28,861 nt of DNA from Chromera velia. Taxonomy: Eukaryota; Sar; Chromeraceae. Within the stretch, counting starts at the first letter, position 1, and each line of letters starts with the position of its first letter. This document shows positions 7,968 through 26,363 of this stretch, in pieces. The translations under genes and the position numbers were made by a program. A model generated the notes under the pieces. It made no database searches, had not been told where the DNA came from, and saw nothing but the letters and a program-made list of their open reading frames with translations. The DNA is taken from positions 1 to 28,861 of the forward strand of contig JAHBMJ010001578.1 of the NCBI GenBank assembly GCA_018398765.1, in the 5' to 3' direction.

Positions 7968-9132
7968 TTATTGTACAGGTGGGTAAGAAATCTCGAGATC
8001 CTTCTCCGTAACGCGCGAGAAGTCCACAGCAGGCTCCCAGACGATGTCGCAAATGCGGCAGGAGCCCTCCGATTCCCGCGCCCTCTCCTGAGACCCAGGG
8101 GCGGAAGAAACAGAAGAAGAAGAAGAAGTCACCTCCGGAGGGCATCTCGTGCTCTTGCGGGTGAAAACATTCCATCCGAATTCCTTTCCGCAATACACCC
8201 CAAGACAGGCCACCACCGTCCCATCCACCACAACCGTGTCTGCGTGCCCTTCCAGTTCCAGTGTGTACACCACATCAGTCTCTCGCGTCTCGATGAACTC
8301 ACACCGCGAGCTCTGCAGCAAACAAGGCCGTGCATGCGGCAACTTCAAAATCACGACAGCATCAGAACAGCTCAACCGAATTTACCTCTTCTGGTTTGTT
8401 CTTTTGCCTCGGCAGACTGTAAGAGAAAACGCACGGGGAACATACATGGAGTCGTACAGCAAGCCGTTGACAGCAAGCCATCTTGGTGTGTCCTTGCGTG
8501 CGTCAACATACATGGAGTCGTACAGCAAGGCAGTCATTCATACTGTCAAAGAAAGCGTGGGTCGAGCTACTTACATTCTCGACTTTGACCCACTTTCCCT
8601 TTCCCCCCCTCAGTTTTCCCGCCTCATCCTCTTCCCACACTGGATGTCCCTCAGTGAGCTGGCACCCCCCTCGGAGAGTCACCACCCGTGCGCTCCCGTC
8701 ATCAGTCGGGCACTCCCACAGCCTTGCCACACGCGCAACCGTCTCGTCTCCAAATGCACCGCTGATCGGCCCTCCCATCAGTTTCTGCCCAGTCACGACC
8801 AAGTCGCCGGCAGACAGGTCACAGACTGCGCGGGTTCCCCCACCGGGGAGGGCAACCTGAGGGTTAGAAAGAAACTCACAGGCAGGCAGGGAGGCAGGCA
8901 GGCAGGCAAAACAGTTCAGATGTCAGTCAGTGAATCAATCTAGCAAGGCGGTGAAAACATGAATTGATGGTACAGGACTCTCTCTCATCTTCTGTCTCCT
9001 CGTTTCCACTTTCTTGCTGTCTACGTGTGTCCCTTTCTCATTTCTCGCTCTTTTTCTCCGAGCACCCCCTTCTCTTCCTCCCGAACCCCCTCACTTTCTT
9101 TCTTTTCTTTTCTTTTCTTTTCTTTTCTTTTT

Positions 9133-13937: not shown

Positions 13938-14759
13938 CCCTTTTGAATTTGACTGAGTTCCGTTGTTCACGCGCGTATGACTAGTATCACGAGGAGCGTT
14001 GCTACTGGCTAGAAAGCAGATTCACAAAAAACCGCTGGCTTGACCTCAATCAAGTGGTGCTGGCGAAACGGACCTCGAGTAATGGGCTGGCAGAGCTGTC
14101 AGAGGTGGCTTTCTCGAAGTGACCGCCACTTTAAATGGCACTTCTGTTGTGTCACTTCTGTAGCAACAAATAACCCGGAATAGGTGAGGAGTGCATGCAG
14201 CCGATTAATCGGGTGTCGCTTCGCTTTCCCTCGATCGGGGCCATATGATCTCGAGTTTTCGCCAGTTGTAAGAAAGTGCCCCTCAAGCAAGCTCGAGACC
14301 TCACAGTCCAGCTAAAAAAAGAAGCATGCAATTTTAGGAGGCGAAAATTGCCGGAAAGATGTCAGAAATTAAGAATTAACCTGCATGACTTTTTTCGTTT
14401 GGGCGACTAAGTGCTGCTTCAGTGAGGTATTACAAGAAGCGGGTGTGCCTCGAATGTAGATCTTCTGAGGACACTCTTCCATACAGTGCTTCCGACTTTC
14501 GACGTCTGGAGCGATTTCTTGCGCAAACCTTAGGCAGCAAGGAAAAGAAAAAAAAATCAGAAGCCGCAGAGACGGACTCGTTTCGCGTTTCTCTGTTCCG
14601 TTTCTTCGGAGAACGTTTCCCTCTGGCGGAGTGGAGGTGTAGTCCAGAATAATTTAAGAAGAACTATTTTGCAACCCCGTCTGATCGCTTTTTGTCTCAC
14701 GAAAGTTCCACAGGTCTCTCGTCTGGCTTGTGTGTGTCGTTTCAGACTCCAAGAAGTTC
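13938..14759. promoter_or_regulatory. Divergent intergenic region with probable shared promoters
   Basis: The 5' ends of two multi-exon genes face away from each other across about 0.8 kb, so both promoters must lie here. No TATA-type element stands out. A strong acceptor (tgtgtcgtttcag, ending at 14745) just before the plus-strand ATG suggests a 5' untranslated or short upstream coding exon. A 76-codon frame at 14422-14652 starting RYYKKRVCLECR is a candidate for that exon, but nothing confirms it. Confidence 0.5.
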
Positions 14760-17700
14760 ATGGAGAGTTCTGCCGAGACGGGGGTCAACCCTACCAACCA
14801 TCTCGTTCACATCACTCAAATTACAGGAGCGCCTGCTTCTCCTTCCCCATCGTCTCAGCAGGAGTTCAGTGGGGCGAAGGCAGCAGTGCCGAACGTGAGT
14901 GGAGGCTCCACTCTTCCTCCTGGCTTGCGGGAAGAAATGGAGCGGGAGGAGGCGGAAGAGAAAAGTCAGGAAGGCCAGTCAGAGGCAGTTCCGATGGATG
15001 GAGACGCAGGTGAGGGACCGAATGCAGTCAATGGTACGGAAGAGGGAGGAGAGCAGGAAGGTGGTTACAATACGAATGATGCCGAGAGGCAAGAGAGAGC
15101 GTCAGAGGAGGCCGGAGAAGAGGACGATGACAGGATGAGAGACGTGGGAGAGAGAGATCCACGAGATCAGGACCAGGGTGTGGAGGGAGAGGTGGGGATG
15201 TTATCGGGGCCTTCTTCTCCAGGTCGCCATCAGGAGTCTGCGCGTTGGACTCCTGGCCACTCTGGTTATCCGGATGAGGAAAGAGACGCATACGATCGGT
15301 ATGATGCTGGGGGGGAACACTCTTTCTCAGGCGGCAGGGAGGAGGACGAGATTGACGAAGAAGAGGAAGAGATCGAAGACCACGAAGGAGAACCCGAAGG
15401 AGAGGGAGTTGCAGTGAAGAGGGAAGGTGAGGAAGGCAAGGAACCAGGCGAGGAAGAGGGGGAGGTGGGAGACGGGAAAAAAGACGGAGAAGAAAAAGAC
15501 GGGCAAGCTGGGAAGATGAAGAAGGCGTTCTCGCATCTGGTCAGTCTTACGCTTCTTGTGTTTTTGACAACCTCCCACAGTACATCCTTATTTGTCTCTC
15601 TTTTGTTTTTTTGCTTCCTTGCTACCTTCCGTTCACTTGTTTCCTGCCTTAGATCTTCACTTTCTTTTCTTGCCTGCTTATTTGTCTTTGTGTTTTCTTG
15701 GATGAAAGCGCGGATGGAAGGGCAGCCCCAGTCAGAGCATGCAGCAATGACACATCAGAAGAAGAAAAGCGAAGAACACAACCTGCAGGAGGAAGGACGC
15801 GTGTGGAGTAGTTGCACGTCCCTCGAAAGAATGGCATCCTTTGTGTTTTTCCCCTTCCTTCCCTACTTTTTTTCTTTTCTTGTTGCAGGAGTATTTGAGG
15901 TACCGTGCCGAGATCGCGACGCCTGTCACCGTGGCGGATCTCCTTTTGAAGGATGGACCCGGATTGAAAGAGGAGGCCACAAAGTTTGGGGTCTCTGAGC
16001 AGGAGGGAGAGGGCGAGACGGCAAGAACCAAAGAGAAGGAGGAGCTGATCGAGGAAATCGTCCTCGCTGCTTACAGGGGCGTCGGTCTGACGGCCGCGTT
16101 GGGGCAGTTGGAACTTCGAGGAGACCGCGGGACTCTTAGGTGGGTGGTGATGCGTGTATGTGTGTATGGGAGAGTGGGAGATCCGCTGTCTCGATCCTTC
16201 TCCCCTCTCTTTCAAAAAGAGCGGCCTGCCTGCATTGTCTGTCTCCTCGGAGGCTGTCACCACACGAAAAGGGTCTGTGAGAACATCAGAGAGAGAGACA
16301 TTCAGTCAGTAAGATGATTCAAATTGAAGCGAGATGGAGTCGGCACTGTCAGGGCACGAGAGGATGAGGGAAATGCAACAGCAAGCATCACGCCTCAAAG
16401 GAAAACGAAAGTTCGAATAGCGTATGTGCAACTCGAAGCTGACCTTCTGATTTCTCTCTCTGTTGCAGAGTGAAGCCAGGACGTGCCTTCTCGATTGGAG
16501 ATGTGTACATCGCGGGAAGCCAAATCCGAAAATTCATCCTTCAGGCTGGAGACAAGTGAGGGAAAGACAGAGACAGACAGACAGACAGACAGACAGAGAC
16601 AGGCAGGCAGGCAGGCAGGCAGAAGAAGACGGACAGGCTTTATCTTTCGTAGGCAGACAGAGGCAAACAGACAGACGAAAAGACAGATCCGGGAGGGGAT
16701 TAGGCCTTTTTTTTGCTTTTCTGAGCAGAAGCAGACGAGTCTTTACCCTGCATTTGTCCATTTTCTTGCCTGAGCTTTTGGCGGGCGTTTCTTCGTTCTA
16801 ATTTGGCTTCCCTTCTATCGTTCCTCACTCGTTGCTTGCTGCGAGTCTCTCTTCTGACTCCCCCCCCTTTTGGCTGAATGCTTTCAGAGTCCTCGCAGAA
16901 GTCCGGGCCCCCTATGCCAGAGGAGAACGTCTCTTTTGCGTCGCCCAGATTCTGGCCATCAACGGAAAGTACGTCCGTCCGTCCATCCGTCCGTCCGGCA
17001 GCCGCCATCCATCCGCGTAGCCACAGATTGATGGTGCCTGCAGGGGTCGGGGGTGAGGAACACAAGAAAGAGGAACGAACGTTGAAAGGAACAGCATGAG
17101 ATGAAAACAGGCCGGCCGACCTTCCCGCTTCCCTCGTTTCAACATCCGACTGCCCGCGTTTGCAGACTTGCCATCCGCTCGCGTATCGCAGCATCGGCAC
17201 TAGACAGACAGACAGACAGACAAGCAGGCAGGTAAGGAGAAGAACAGGCCCACCCGCACAGGAAACTCCGACACCCCCCTCTTTCTCATCGCCGCTGCCC
17301 TCCCTCCCTGTCTGAGTGTCCCTCCCGGACCTCCCAAGCAATTCCTTCACCCGAATACCATCAATAAAGCAGAAGGAGAAGAGACGAAGAGCTATATTAG
17401 ATCGCATCCCTCCCACAGCTGCGAGCCCTTTTGAGGCTCTTTCTGCTTTTAGACACTCGCATGCTCCCTCGAGCTGCGGATGGAAACTCCGGTTGCTCGA
17501 ACAAGCCAGCCACCTTTCCGAATTCTCTCGAATGAATTCCGTCTGACGTATCCCTCTTGCCTGCCTGTGTGTCCTACCTCCCTTCCGCATAGTAGAAGCA
17601 GCAACACTCTCACCGCACCGTCTCATAGTAGAAGCAGCCTCAGCAACCCTCTCATAGTAGAAGCAGCAACACTTTTTTCTCTTTGCAGTCTGCCTACAGC

Positions 17701-19928
17701 CCAGCCGTGTCCTCGTATATGCGCAGAGAGAGCTACACGGGTTGGACAACCGGCACACAGAACAAGAGAGAGAAGAAAAAGCCTCTCAATGAGAGCACAG
17801 TCCCATTCCCCTACCCTGCCTGCATTCTCTCTTGTTTAAACGTCTTCTTCCAAATCTCTATGTTGTTGCTCATCTCTGCTGCTGCCGTCAAGCAGCGTCT
17901 CGAGACGCAACTGCGAACCGCCCCCTGGCTGACCCCTCCCCCCCCTCGAGAGACAGTCTCGCACTTCCCTCCCTCCCTCCCTCCCGCCTTCACAGCGATC
18001 CCCCGCTCTGCTTGGCATCGACACACCACATTGCATCGCAGTCTAAAAGAAACGGCACGCCCTGGCCCCCCCTTCCCCTCCCCTTCCCGCCAAGAAGGTG
18101 CAACCCTCCCGTGCGTGTATCTTCCTTGTCACAGTAGTCAGCCCCCCCCCTTCCTGCCTCCGCATGTCTTCTGTCCTATCCGCTGCAGGCCGACAGAGGT
18201 TTACGAATCCGAGGAAAGACCCGAGAGGCTGAAGGCGAGAGAAGAAGAGAGGGAGAAAGAACATGAGAGCAGAACCGAACACATCGTGAGGGAAAAGAAG
18301 GATACAGCCAAGAGGGAGGCCGTCGGACTCGGTCAGTGTGTGGCTTGAGGGGCAGAGGGAGGGAGTGGCTGACTGTCCTGTTTGTCTCTTCGATCTCGAT
18401 CCTCACATTCCCTCCCGTCTACTCTTTTCTCTCTTGTTTCTGCCTTGACACTGCAGCCGATCAACTTTTAGCTTCCCTTCTTTGTCTCATGTTGACTTTC
18501 TGAAAACAGTCCCCCACTCTCTTTGCAGAGCTTCCGTTGGCAAAAGTCTTCTGTATTTTCTACACATGTGCATTCAACTTTATCTTCCTTTTTGCAGGGC
18601 TCCCACCGGATGCTGTTCCCGGCATGCCCTTTCGATCCCGAACGTACATCACGGGAATTCCCCCCAGGTTCCGAGAAAAGGAAGGGGCAGGGGGGATAAA
18701 CAACGCCGTCTCCCTCCCCCCTCCGAAGGTCCTCCGGGCAGGCATGGGGCCGAACTCTAGTATCCCTCCGGAAGACGACAGAGACAGGAGAGGGGGGGGG
18801 GCAGTGACAGCGGGAGGTGTCACTTTGCGACCTCGTGACAGCGTACTTGCTGACAGGGGGGATAGAAGGGGGAGTGGTGGGGGGGGGGCATTTCCTGTCC
18901 CTGCTGAGGCCTCCTGGCGGGACAGGGACAGGGACAGGAACAGAGAGAGATATTTGGACGGGGGGGATTCCTCTCCAGCCCCTTTGGAGAGAGAGTACTC
19001 TGGTGGGCATGCCCACTCGATGGCGCCCCCTCTGCTCGGCCGTGACATGGTGGACGGTGTGCCCCCCGGAGGCAGCGGTATGCCGATGTCGATGGGGGGG
19101 GCAGCGGTGGGTGGTGGGGGTAGTTCGTTCAATGGACGTCGGTGGAGAGACCCCGCCTTAGATCGGGAGCCGCAAAGGGGTGACTACCCCGACGCCTCCA
19201 GGGGTCTGCCAAGAGAAAGGGAGAAGGAGAGAGATCGGGGGGGTGAGGGCAGAAACAGTCGGGAGAGGGACCCCATGGGCTCTGCGTATGCGATGCATCA
19301 AGAGAGAGAACGGGAAAGAGAGAGAGACAGAGACAGAGATTTAGAGCCAGACAGAGCCGACCGGAATCGGCGGAGTCGCCCAACCGAACGAGGAGAGTAT
19401 GGGGAGTATGGGGCGCGAGAGAGAGAGAGGACTCGGGATAGAGAGAGGGAGATGGACGCTGCCCGAATGAGTACCCGAAGAGGGACAGGAGGTCCAGGGA
19501 GGAGTCCCGCCCTTCCGGTTCAGATGATGGACAGAGATAGGGAAAGAGGCAGCAGTAGAGAAAGAGGAAGAGGGGCTGAACTTCACTCACACCCCTCTCA
19601 CCAGATGCATTCAGCGCATCATCTCAGCAGAGACAGCCATCACATGGGATCGATGCAGGCATCCCCGAGAGTCCTTAACCGCGATCCCCGGAGAGAGAGA
19701 AGCCCTCCCGTCTCTCCTTCCCGTCTCCATCATTATTCTGCGGGCGGGCATGGACACGGGGAAGAGGACCTTCCCAGATACGATCCTGATGCAGATGAGC
19801 GTGAGCGACTCCGCTTTGCCCACCGGATGCCCACACAGGTCCCCATGATGTCTGCCCCCTACGACAGAGACAGAGACAGGGAGCGAGACAGGGAGAACGA
19901 ATATCTCATGCGAAGGCATCAGTATTAG
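14760..19928 (+). CDS. Rho_N plus Rho-type RNA-binding domain protein with acidic N-terminus and RD/RE-rich tail (6 exons, 890 aa)
   Basis: Exons: 14760-15539, 15889-16139, 16469-16555, 16888-16968, 18189-18331, 18598-19928. Phases agree throughout (0, 2, 2, 2, 1) and total 891 codons with TAG. Residues 1-260 are Glu/Gly-rich and disordered. Residues about 276-322 resemble the Rho_N SAP-like helical domain: LKEEATKFGV, then a KEKEELIEEIVLA helix. Residues 330-399 match the cold-shock RNA-binding domain of bacterial termination factor Rho, block by block: GQLELRGDRGTLR, GDVYIAGSQIRKFIL, QAGDKVLAEVRAP, GERLFCVAQILAING. A Lys/Glu helix follows, and from about 448 a tail full of RD, RE and ER dipeptides with SP sites, like splicing-associated proteins. 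There is no Walker A/B ATPase, so it is not a helicase; nuclear RNA binding is my inference. Intron 4 (1220 bp) may hide a cassette exon at 17167-17232, phase 2 in and out. Confidence 0.8.
16566..16625. repeat. (GACA)n/(GGCA)n microsatellite
   Basis: A tetranucleotide run of gaca units followed by ggca units starts about 10 bp after the exon 3 donor of the Rho-like gene, inside intron 3. Confidence 0.9.
17588..17667. repeat. Three copies of a 15-bp motif in intron 4
   Basis: The motif catagtagaagcagc occurs at 17588-17602, 17624-17638 and 17653-17667, spaced 36 and 29 bp, just before a strong acceptor-like site (ttttctctttgcag, ending 17687). It lies inside the long intron 4 of the Rho-like gene. 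A further frame after that acceptor (AYSPAVSSYMRRESYTGW) is open, but its phase does not fit the neighbouring exons. Confidence 0.85.
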
Positions 19929-23389: not shown

Positions 23390-23896
23390 TCAGTATTCCC
23401 TGTGCCCGCACTTTTGGCATTTTGCAAACTTGTAGTTGTGTTTCATGCCGTCTGTGCATGTGCCTGCGGACCCTTTCGAAACAGTCTCCGTTTTCCCGTA
23501 GCCCTCATTACATTGGCACTTGCTGCACTTTCCGAATCTGCACAACAAGTATCGCAAAACACAAGCATGCACAATTGAGGCATGCATCACTAACAAGGCA
23601 GCTGAACAGGAAGTTACCGGGAACGGGACATTACACGACACGCAGACTGACTTCCACGTGTGAGGACCTCCCTTTGGGCAGTTGCCAGACGTGGACTCTC
23701 TCGCATCGCCGGGAGCGGCTTTGTACGTACTGACTTCTCCTGCCTGTCGCCTATTCGTCGCTGCGTTGTCGAACTGCATCGGGCCGTGAAGCGCTGCAGG
23801 AGCGACCTTGAGAGGCTTCAGGCACTTTGGACATTCATTTTTCCCGTACTTGTCAACCCAGGTGTAACCACAGGTTGGGCACTCCTTACGCACCAT
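23390..23896 (-). CDS. Small zinc-ribbon protein with duplicated C-x5-H-x6-C-x2-C module (2 exons, 130 aa)
   Basis: Exons 23896-23652 and 23537-23390 are separated by a 114-bp intron (donor aa|gtcagt, acceptor ttgttgtgcag, phase 2). The ATG at 23896 opens on a zinc ribbon: Cys6-x2-Cys9-GYTW...Cys22-x2-Cys25. After an Ala-rich linker come two copies of one module: Cys73-x5-His79-x6-Cys86-x2-Cys89 and Cys109-x5-His115-x6-Cys122-x2-Cys125, both with a KF-x-KC-x-KC core. The first copy spans the splice junction and appears only after splicing, which strongly supports the intron. The protein ends CGHREY. Binding of three zinc ions is expected. The partner (nucleic acid or protein) is unknown and I do not recognise a named family. 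It is divergent from the membrane-protein gene. Confidence 0.8.
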
Positions 23897-24452
23897 CTTG
23901 TCTGAACAGTGAGAAAACTGATTTCGTACTGAAACTGTTGTTGAGTTTAACCGTCAAGTGTTCTACGAACCGACCGTCAACTGTGCGAGCCCTGATTGTT
24001 ATTTTACTTATTTTTGCTCCAATTTGTATCAAGTGTTGGAGAACACAACTGTCGTGTGTGGAGGGTTTGAAGTGCCCGCAGTGACTTCGAACTGTTACCG
24101 CATGTCGCTTCGATCCTAGCTCATGCAATTCACTCAATCGATCGACTTGCATGTTGTTCGTACGTTTTGTCAGCCTCGGAGGGCATCTCAACCTATGGAA
24201 AGGCCCCAGGATTAGTTTTTTCCGCATAAAGTATGCCATTCGCGCGCGTATATATATATATATATATATATATATGCGTACGTGTATATATATATACGAC
24301 GTACGTAAAAATAGAAAAGCTCCAAGGCACTCACCACTCAAACGATGTGTGTCAGTCTGACTGAAGGGGACCTTTCCGAATAATCGGCTACCACAGCATT
24401 CACTACAGCTTTAATTCTCTTTCTGAAATGATTTGCAACAGGATCAAGTTTG
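23897..24452. promoter_or_regulatory. Divergent intergenic region with (TA)n tract
   Basis: The zinc-module gene (minus) and the membrane-protein gene (plus) start on either side of this 556-bp spacer, so their promoters are here. It contains a (TA)n run of about 27 bp at 24249-24275 and a second TA run near 24284-24296, with gcgcgcg and acgtacg-type palindromes between and around them. An atttgcaacag acceptor-like site 10 bp before the plus-strand ATG hints at a 5' untranslated intron. Confidence 0.5.
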
Positions 24453-26363
24453 ATGAAAAAAGGCAGTGGACCACCACACGACAATGCACCATCAGTTGTG
24501 GACGAAACTCTGCTGGCCTCGAGCTGTAGCAGCATGCCCAGAATCGAACAAGGGGAGACAGAGGAGTCAAGCCCTTCTGCTTCCCTCCCTCCGTCTACCC
24601 CTGTCTTTTCTTTGCCTCGCCCGTCTCCTGTGAATCTGTTGCCACGGCGACCGGGGAAGGAAGGCACTGGAACAAGAGAAAGGCAAGGAGAGGAGGACGT
24701 ACACAACCCTTCGGAAGACAGGCAAGGAAATCCCAGCCTCTTCTCACGGAAGAATTCGGGGCAGCAGGCACTTCAAACACTTGAAGGAGACGATTGTGAA
24801 GGAAAGAGCACTCTCCCTGTCGTGTCTACTTGTGCCCCAAAACAGCAAAATGGACTCGATGGACTTGTGGATCAGCAAGAGAGGACTTTTTGTGTTCCCC
24901 AACCAGCAACCAAAAGCACCGGGGAACTCGCAATAAGTCCGCAGAGGGATTCTGAGGAAGGAGAGGCTCGACAGAGGGTCTCTAGTTCGTTGTCTAGTTC
25001 TGTGATTCTTTCGGCAGCGTTCTCTTCGTGTGATGAGGGTGAACAGGGTCTGGCAGATCAGAGAGAAAATGATCTTGAGGGTGGAGGGTGTGCAGAGGGC
25101 AATCAGGAGCCTGTGCCTGGACGTGCGCGGTTCAGTCAGTCTGTCGCGGTTGCTTGTTATGAAGTGGAGGAAGATTCAGCTCCAAGTCAGGCTCTTCCTG
25201 TGCAGGAGAAGGAGGAAGGGGTGTCTGGCTCTACACAGGGAGGGAAGAGAGAATCGTCAGTCTCTCGTGGAGCCTCTCGGTGTCTTCTTCCGTCAAATTT
25301 AGATTCGAAGGAAAGGGGGACGGAGGACTGGTACGGTTCAGATCTTTCAAAGTGGACTTTTCGAAATGTGATCAGAAACAGGAATCTGAATCCGTGGATT
25401 GGAATTGCAATAATTTTAGCCGCTGTGGGGGCGGGATTGTCTGTTCCAATTTTGAGACTGAGTGACATGTCCAGAGCAGTTCGCGAGTTTCGGTCACATG
25501 GAATCTCTCCTGGAGCTCTGGTTGTTCTTCTGTATACGCAGTACAGTGTGACGGTTTTTGCTGCATTCGTCGGTCTCGTTGGTTTTGGGTTCTCTCCGCG
25601 TACCCCTGCATGGACTTGGGCCCTCAGAGTTCCCATCTTTACTAGTGTAGTCAATGGAGCGCTTCGGTTGCTTGACCCGTTTGAGGGTCTGCTCGTTGCA
25701 TACGCAACAGCCGGTCTGTACTTGTCTGTTTTTTTTGTGGCGTACAGTGTTTTCTCTTTCCCTGGTGCCTCATGGATCAATCATGGCTTGCATGTCCTGC
25801 GATGCACTTTCATTCTGTATGACTATTCATCGGAGATTGCTTTGGGTTTGTTGACGATTGAAAAGGGCGTTGATCTGAAGTCAGACCTATTCCTGACTGC
25901 GGGCGTGTGCATCGTCGTGTGTGCTTGTACTGTCGATGTGCCGCTGTTGGTGTACAATCTTGAGCACAACCACGTGAGAACGGTACCGTTGAGCAATGTC
26001 TTCAGGGTACTGCTGTGGATGAGTATGTTTGCTGAGTTCGTTGTTCTTGGGTCTCTGTGGTTTGTCTCTCCCTTCGTGCACGGAGAGAGTTCGGAAGAAG
26101 AGAAGGGCGTCCAGGTGACTCTGCTTGTGATCACCTCTCTGCTGACCATTCTGGGCGTTGTGGACAAAATTCTTCTCCTGAGGGGTTTCGACGTCATGCT
26201 GGTGATCGAACAGAGGTTCGACAGGGTCAAGCAGTCTGTCACCCCTGTCCTTTCTAGAATGACGCAGAGAGTCAGGGACACATTCACGTCCTCTCGTGCA
26301 CAAACGCGCCAGTCTCGCAGCGGGACGCAGGGAGGTGTAACAGTTGCGGAAACTGTTGTTTAA
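24453..26363 (+). CDS. Intronless polytopic membrane protein with long hydrophilic N-terminus (636 aa)
   Basis: I do not recognise a family. The ATG at 24453 gives 636 residues and a TAA stop. Residues 1-310 are hydrophilic, rich in Ser, Gln, Glu and Gly, and look disordered. The rest is hydrophobic, with likely membrane helices near 314-335 (IGIAIILAAVGAGLSVPIL), 352-378, 411-435, possibly 444-468, then 477-502, 516-540 and 553-576. A basic 60-residue tail (RMTQRVRDTFTSS) follows. With six or seven helices it could be a receptor- or transporter-like protein, but no motif identifies it. The count of helices fixes neither the topology nor the side of the N-terminus. No intron is needed, unlike the two large genes to its left, and no signal peptide is visible. 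Confidence 0.82.
   Translation: MKKGSGPPHDNAPSVVDETLLASSCSSMPRIEQGETEESSPSASLPPSTPVFSLPRPSPVNLLPRRPGKEGTGTRERQGEEDVHNPSEDRQGNPSLFSRKNSGQQALQTLEGDDCEGKSTLPVVSTCAPKQQNGLDGLVDQQERTFCVPQPATKSTGELAISPQRDSEEGEARQRVSSSLSSSVILSAAFSSCDEGEQGLADQRENDLEGGGCAEGNQEPVPGRARFSQSVAVACYEVEEDSAPSQALPVQEKEEGVSGSTQGGKRESSVSRGASRCLLPSNLDSKERGTEDWYGSDLSKWTFRNVIRNRNLNPWIGIAIILAAVGAGLSVPILRLSDMSRAVREFRSHGISPGALVVLLYTQYSVTVFAAFVGLVGFGFSPRTPAWTWALRVPIFTSVVNGALRLLDPFEGLLVAYATAGLYLSVFFVAYSVFSFPGASWINHGLHVLRCTFILYDYSSEIALGLLTIEKGVDLKSDLFLTAGVCIVVCACTVDVPLLVYNLEHNHVRTVPLSNVFRVLLWMSMFAEFVVLGSLWFVSPFVHGESSEEEKGVQVTLLVITSLLTILGVVDKILLLRGFDVMLVIEQRFDRVKQSVTPVLSRMTQRVRDTFTSSRAQTRQSRSGTQGGVTVAETVV

Follow-up and report, generated by a model that had tools for sequence, protein, structure and literature searches.

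The window analyzed here, a stretch of 28,861 nucleotides of Chromera velia DNA (contig JAHBMJ010001578.1), contains on its forward strand at positions 14760–19928 a spliced gene whose product carries the RNA-binding domain of Rho, a transcription terminator of bacteria. The presence of this domain in an intron-bearing eukaryotic gene, without the Rho motor in the same protein, is well supported. The gene comprises six exons separated by GT-AG introns, and the splice phases agree at all junctions (0, 2, 2, 2, and 1), as an initial annotation of this DNA had claimed, to give a frame of 890 amino acids that is uninterrupted by a stop codon. On the likeliest reading, to which we assign a probability of about one-half, the product acts in the nucleus as an RNA-binding factor, formed around a single captured N-terminal domain of Rho.

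Rho RNA-binding domain and gene structure

A Pfam hmmscan of the 259–amino acid spliced core returned Rho_RNA_bind (PF07497) as the sole family, with an E value of 6.6e-11 and a score of 42.3 bits. The match extends over residues 334–402, close to the 330–399 given in the initial annotation, crosses three exon junctions, and covers positions 5–72 of the 73 in the profile, which places the core within this family. A scan of the whole protein yielded the same family at residues 341–402 (E value of 3.9e-10, 39.8 bits), with the curated cut-off being 27 bits. All 13 matches in a search of PDB sequences with the core were Rho chains, the best being that of T. maritima Rho (E value of 9.7e-8), and E. 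coli Rho (1a62) was matched with an E value of 1.4e-5. We also scored the core and individual exons with a profile built from the N-termini of 38 bacterial Rho sequences, with each query being tested against 2000 of its own shuffles. The spliced core scored 54.2 bits, compared with 8.4 for the best of its shuffles, and exons 3 and 4 alone scored 20.5 and 8.8 bits, respectively, each above all 2000 shuffles. The score of exon 2 alone, 6.1 bits, was equalled or exceeded by 1 of 2000 shuffles. Exon 5 alone showed no similarity to this Rho profile (–1.1 bits, equalled or exceeded by 1057 of 2000 shuffles).

The NCBIfam models of Rho were matched at N-terminal positions only (22–136 of 413, 26–134 of 415, and 3–75 of 360) and with scores far below their cut-offs (45.8 bits versus 315 for PRK09376 and 39.7 versus 509.45 for TIGR00767). 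These models gave no match to the RecA-type ATPase of Rho in the 890–amino acid protein. The ATPase is therefore absent from the protein, in agreement with what had been proposed.

Exon 1 (14760–15539) encodes an acidic, low-complexity N-terminus of 260 residues with a net charge of –49. Exon 2 (15889–16139) encodes residues 261–344, with Rho_N-like helices followed by the beginning of the Rho RNA-binding domain. The core of the domain, IGDVYIAGSQIRKFILQAGDK, is encoded by exon 3 (16469–16555), which is assigned on the basis of both profile score and PF07497, and its end, RAPYARGERLFCVAQILAING, by exon 4 (16888–16968), assigned on the basis of profile score. Exon 5 (18189–18331), placed by splice signals and phase, encodes residues 400–447, comprising the final few residues of the Pfam match and then a charged Glu/Lys/Arg segment. 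Exon 6 (18598–19928) encodes a tail with many RD, DR, RE, and ER pairs and ends at the stop codon. Given that consecutive parts of one domain lie on separate exons that join in phase, the homology lends support to the splicing together of exons 2, 3, and 4 and, through a few residues, of exon 5. Exons 1 and 6 are proposed to be joined to these on the basis of splice signals and open frames. Among 1000 dinucleotide shuffles of each exon, the frame stayed open in 1 for exon 1 and in none for exon 6; the corresponding counts for exons 2–5 were 84, 354, 585, and 290, so that openness adds little support for these four exons.

A splice acceptor–like TTTCAG lies at 14740–14745, immediately ahead of the modelled ATG, and, given this sequence, a 5' untranslated region or a coding exon may be present upstream of 14745. 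Application of a simple GTA/GTG donor rule yielded six short in-phase candidates for upstream coding exons, of 7 to 67 bases, defined by frame and a donor-like GT alone. The pyrimidine fractions of the five introns were 0.61, 0.45, 0.50, 0.57, and 0.65, and these values, not being unusual, do not bear out the earlier description of the introns as very pyrimidine-rich. With regard to the host, the assembly contains 11 matches to the alveolin family (PF12314), all above cut-off, a result that supports an alveolate host; 1 of 14 control bacteria (Caulobacter) also matched this family.

Putative Rho_N region and origin of the module

A probable, diverged Rho_N three-helix region with a seven-residue insertion occupies 15922–16083 on the forward strand (about residues 272–325) and is collinear with 15 bacterial Rho N-termini. 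The Rho_N domain named in the initial annotation fared unevenly. Pfam gave no Rho_N match in the spliced core, and local profile scores were at the level of chance, both for the region (1.5 bits, equalled or exceeded by 114 of 2000 shuffles) and for helices 1 and 2 alone (–0.8, equalled or exceeded by 690 of 2000). In contrast, a whole-profile alignment that admits the seven-residue insertion scored 11.8, compared with a mean of –5.4 for shuffles (standard deviation of 5.2), and was equalled or exceeded by only 4 of 500 shuffles, with helices 1 and 2 alone being equalled or exceeded by 7 of 1000. The whole-profile score of the region also exceeded those of all 62 other windows of the protein, the best of which was –11.4.

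We obtained structure models for this region with AlphaFold2. Exon 2 alone (mean predicted local distance difference test score, or pLDDT, of 55) was modelled with helices at 15–21, 26–30, and 48–62, as in Rho_N, and with an extra helix at 67–77, where Rho starts a strand. Inclusion of 15 bacterial Rho rows (15 of 37 trimmed bacterial sequences), which biases the prediction, gave three helices and two strands with a pLDDT of 63, and the top Foldseek match of that model was Rho, albeit weakly so (E value of 3.7, probability of 0.38). A PDB search with the resulting 16-row profile returned 14 Rho chains and is uninformative, given that 15 of the 16 rows are bacterial Rho.

To gain insight into origin, we scanned bacterial genomes, obtaining at least 589 candidate stretches, of which 550 were confirmed. 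The best 80 of these 550, a selection biased toward near relatives, showed 33–48% identity over the best aligned segment and belonged to Ignavibacteria, Acidobacteria, Betaproteobacteria, and others. An open reading frame with the search motif was found at 74 of the 80 loci (six were dropped), and removal of 36 near-copies left 38 sequences. In a tree of 38 bacterial sequences and the window protein, the latter was unplaced, with a branch of about 10, and fell within no starred set. A viral or phage origin was considered and rejected. The spliced core yielded 40 candidate stretches in viral contigs, none of which was confirmed, and an alignment query yielded 20, of which the one confirmed has an open reading frame for a complete Rho of 418 amino acids; phage and plasmid collections gave no match at an E value of 1e-5. 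Capture from bacteria is likely.

No second copy of the Rho module was seen in the assembly (177.8 Mb, 4040 contigs), in which one of the searches also missed the intron-split copy of the window and would likewise miss a diverged split one. The fifth match in the assembly search for the module had an E value of 2.5 and was taken as chance, and the Rho_N family had no match in the assembly at an E value of 1. The absence of a visible second copy, the long tree branch, and the position of the exon 1 and exon 6 joins beyond the reach of homology would all fit a horizontally acquired gene now reduced to a nonfunctional remnant, or a mispredicted fusion of unrelated exons. We regard either explanation as very improbable, however, because the gene has five GT-AG introns and no stop in 890 codons, exons 1 and 6 are open far beyond chance, and many residues of the domain are kept.

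Nucleotide-binding face and charged flanks

We compared the binding face of the window protein with that of E. coli Rho and the 38 bacterial sequences. Residues equivalent to D60, D78, Y80, S84, Q85, I86, R87, R88 (as Lys), F89, D95, R102, E108, R109, and F111 of E. coli Rho are kept, whereas those equivalent to F62, F64, P83 (Gly), K105, Y110 (Leu), and K115 (Gln) are replaced. The equivalent of R66 was kept in the HMM (hidden Markov model) alignment and changed in the MAFFT alignment. Among F62, F64, R66, D78, Y80, E108, and Y110, which we take to be the base-binding residues of the primary site, D78, Y80, and E108 are kept and F62, F64, and Y110 are changed. In E. coli Rho, the R88E mutation abolishes and K115E reduces the binding of rut RNA, according to PMC11018626. 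The window protein resembles the N-terminal domain of bacterial Rho in its Rho_RNA_bind homology and in much of its RNA-binding edge, and differs from Rho in the lack of an ATPase/translocase, in its eukaryotic introns and long charged flanks, and in the replacement of three aromatic residues of the binding face. RNA binding by the domain is plausible but would hardly match that of Rho exactly. The link drawn in the initial annotation between the domain and C-rich or pyrimidine-rich introns is weak, given that the pyrimidine content of the introns is not unusual and that both phenylalanines and the pocket tyrosine are replaced.

The domain has a net charge of +6, and the adjoining segments, residues 261–330 and 403–460, have net charges of –6 and –3, respectively. 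Inspection by eye revealed no signal peptide or plastid leader in the modelled N-terminus, which is polar and acidic. The tail, from residue 461, contains 19 RD, 20 DR, 20 RE, and 19 ER pairs, with only 3 RS and 7 SR. Its arginine-enriched mixed-charge stretch (19161–19490, forward strand; about residues 636–745) is 58–63% charged per 60-residue window, with a net charge of about zero and almost no Lys. The 60 residues from 681 to 740, for instance, include 19 Arg, no Lys, and 19 Asp plus Glu, so that the tail shows the dense Arg with Asp/Glu, near-zero net charge, and paucity of Lys of a mixed-charge domain. The claim that an acidic N-terminus and an RD/RE tail flank the domain thus held.

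Proteins with arginine-enriched mixed-charge domains are described in PMC9324279 as accumulating in nuclear speckles and those with blocky versions in the nucleolus. The window tail, about 60% charged and net-neutral in Arg, Asp, and Glu, resembles such speckle domains, although the mixed charge of the latter consists mainly of Arg and Asp (PMC9324279), whereas the pairs of the window tail are equally rich in Glu. By analogy, the tail favours a nuclear role. The known folded domains of speckle mixed-charge proteins are of other kinds, and a Rho OB-fold (oligonucleotide/oligosaccharide-binding fold) is not known from such a protein. The role of host RNA-processing factor, suggested in the initial annotation, may reasonably be proposed for the protein in view of its charged flanks, the acidic N-terminus and the mixed-charge tail.

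Several points weigh against the reading of the product as an RNA-binding factor of the nucleus that derives from a captured Rho domain. The equivalents of F62, F64, and Y110 are nonaromatic in the window protein and aromatic in 37, 38, and 38, respectively, of the 38 bacterial rows; the changed P83 equivalent is Pro in all 38; and the Gln at the K115 equivalent is found in 1 of 38. With these five changes, the domain may bind RNA weakly or in an altered manner, or may no longer bind it at all. An alternating Arg/Asp peptide reached speckles without phase separation by itself (PMC9324279), so that the tail need not increase RNA affinity. Moreover, the homology does not reach as far as the joining of exons 1 and 6, and the tree, with its window branch of about 10, does not settle the donor or the direction of transfer.

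The changes at F62, F64, P83, Y110, and K115 could also indicate that the Rho fold was retained to serve as a scaffold or in protein binding, with loss of RNA binding. According to PMC11018626, the same face of bacterial Rho contacts proteins, namely Rof and the NusA/NusG elongation complex. The retention of D78, Y80, R87, F89, R102, E108, and R109 would be hard to explain by the fold alone, however, and the net charge of +6 between two negatively charged segments also speaks against this explanation, which we consider unlikely.

A similarly low likelihood applies to an organelle factor like RHON1 of plants, imported into plastids or mitochondria, in which the Rho domain would serve transcript termination, stabilization, or R-loop handling. 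Both eukaryotic uses of a Rho part that we found in the literature are plastidial: RHON1 acts in chloroplasts (PMC13289151), and euglenophytes possess a plastid-targeted full Rho, with unaffected functional motifs and an N-terminal extension resembling a bipartite signal (PMC6242988). The TTTCAG ending at 14745 and the six in-phase candidate upstream exons also favour this explanation, but these candidates are short and defined by frame and GT as described above, no signal peptide is apparent by eye in the acidic N-terminus of the model, and a 260-residue acidic N-terminus and large Arg/Asp/Glu tail are atypical of imported plastid proteins. RHON1 binds RNA and, like the window product, is a eukaryotic protein that contains part of the Rho N-terminal region. 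Its Rho_N motif is located at the C-terminus, with one sentence of PMC11120748 naming the same region "Rho RNA binding domain". In contrast, the Rho-like region of the window protein lies at about residues 272–402 of 890, only its Rho_RNA_bind match is significant, and this match is a mid-protein OB-fold domain in a protein with no plastid leader seen. RHON1 itself presumably lacks both the Rho motor and the OB-fold domain. Euglenophyte Rho shares with the window gene the presence of Rho homology in a eukaryotic nuclear gene, ascribed in that case to bacterial transfer, but is full-length and plastid-targeted, whereas the window protein has the RNA-binding part only. The euglenophyte authors stated that, to their knowledge, Rho had never been reported from eukaryotes, and they took other eukaryotic database matches for bacterial contaminants (PMC6242988).

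Other features of the window and proposed role

At the left end of the window, positions 1–1006 consist of nine tandem copies of a 111-base unit that are 99% matching and extend past the window end, and this repeat gives rise to long open frames on both strands. Open reading frames on the reverse strand at 7971–8922 contain the wording VCDLSAGDLV, LTEGHPVW, and VYTLELEGHADTVVVDGTVVACLG, which resembles that of Hint domains; this identity was rejected, given that the frames had no Pfam match either singly or joined. A cysteine-rich open reading frame at 23393–23953 on the reverse strand, with CPTCG, CPKC, and CQKCG motifs and no Pfam match, possibly encodes a zinc-binding protein. The 642–amino acid frame at 24435–26360 on the forward strand, also without a Pfam match, has a low-complexity N-terminus followed by what appear by eye to be several hydrophobic stretches, and its product is possibly a membrane protein.

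With regard to the nuclear RNA-binding factor that we favour for the gene at 14760–19928, an ancestor most likely acquired the rho gene of a bacterium, or just the 5' part of that gene. The ATPase part would have been lost or never present, introns would have been gained, and the Rho domain would have been placed between the acidic disordered N-terminus and the arginine-rich mixed-charge tail. The tail probably retains the protein in nuclear speckle-like bodies together with pre-mRNA, and the Rho OB-fold probably provides a weak contact with single-stranded RNA through the kept edge (Y357, E386/R387, S361-Q362-I363-R364-K365-F366, and R379). According to PMC11018626, the core of one Rho site accommodates only about two nucleotides and the extended form of the site about six. 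To bind with useful affinity, the protein would therefore have to rely on its tail or on partners as substitutes for the Rho hexamer.

We found no eukaryotic Rho RNA-binding OB-fold without the motor in the open-licence literature surveyed, although InterPro or genome databases may already list it; in PMC4501334, the paper on the chromerid genomes, "Rho" appears twice in the main text, both times as a correlation coefficient. We tentatively suggest, at somewhat less than even odds, that a captured Rho RNA-binding domain without its motor functions in the alveolate nucleus as a factor for pre-mRNA processing or for transcription. Such a role of the Rho fold beyond bacteria and plastids was not found in the literature surveyed. 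A motor-less, intron-rich nuclear gene with a Rho RNA-binding domain would, if confirmed, mean that the loading module of the terminator is separable and reusable, and it would provide a natural test of the domain acting alone, outside the hexamer. Should the protein be associated with speckles, nuclear RNA processing in a probable relative of apicomplexans would have recruited a piece of the machinery for bacterial transcription.

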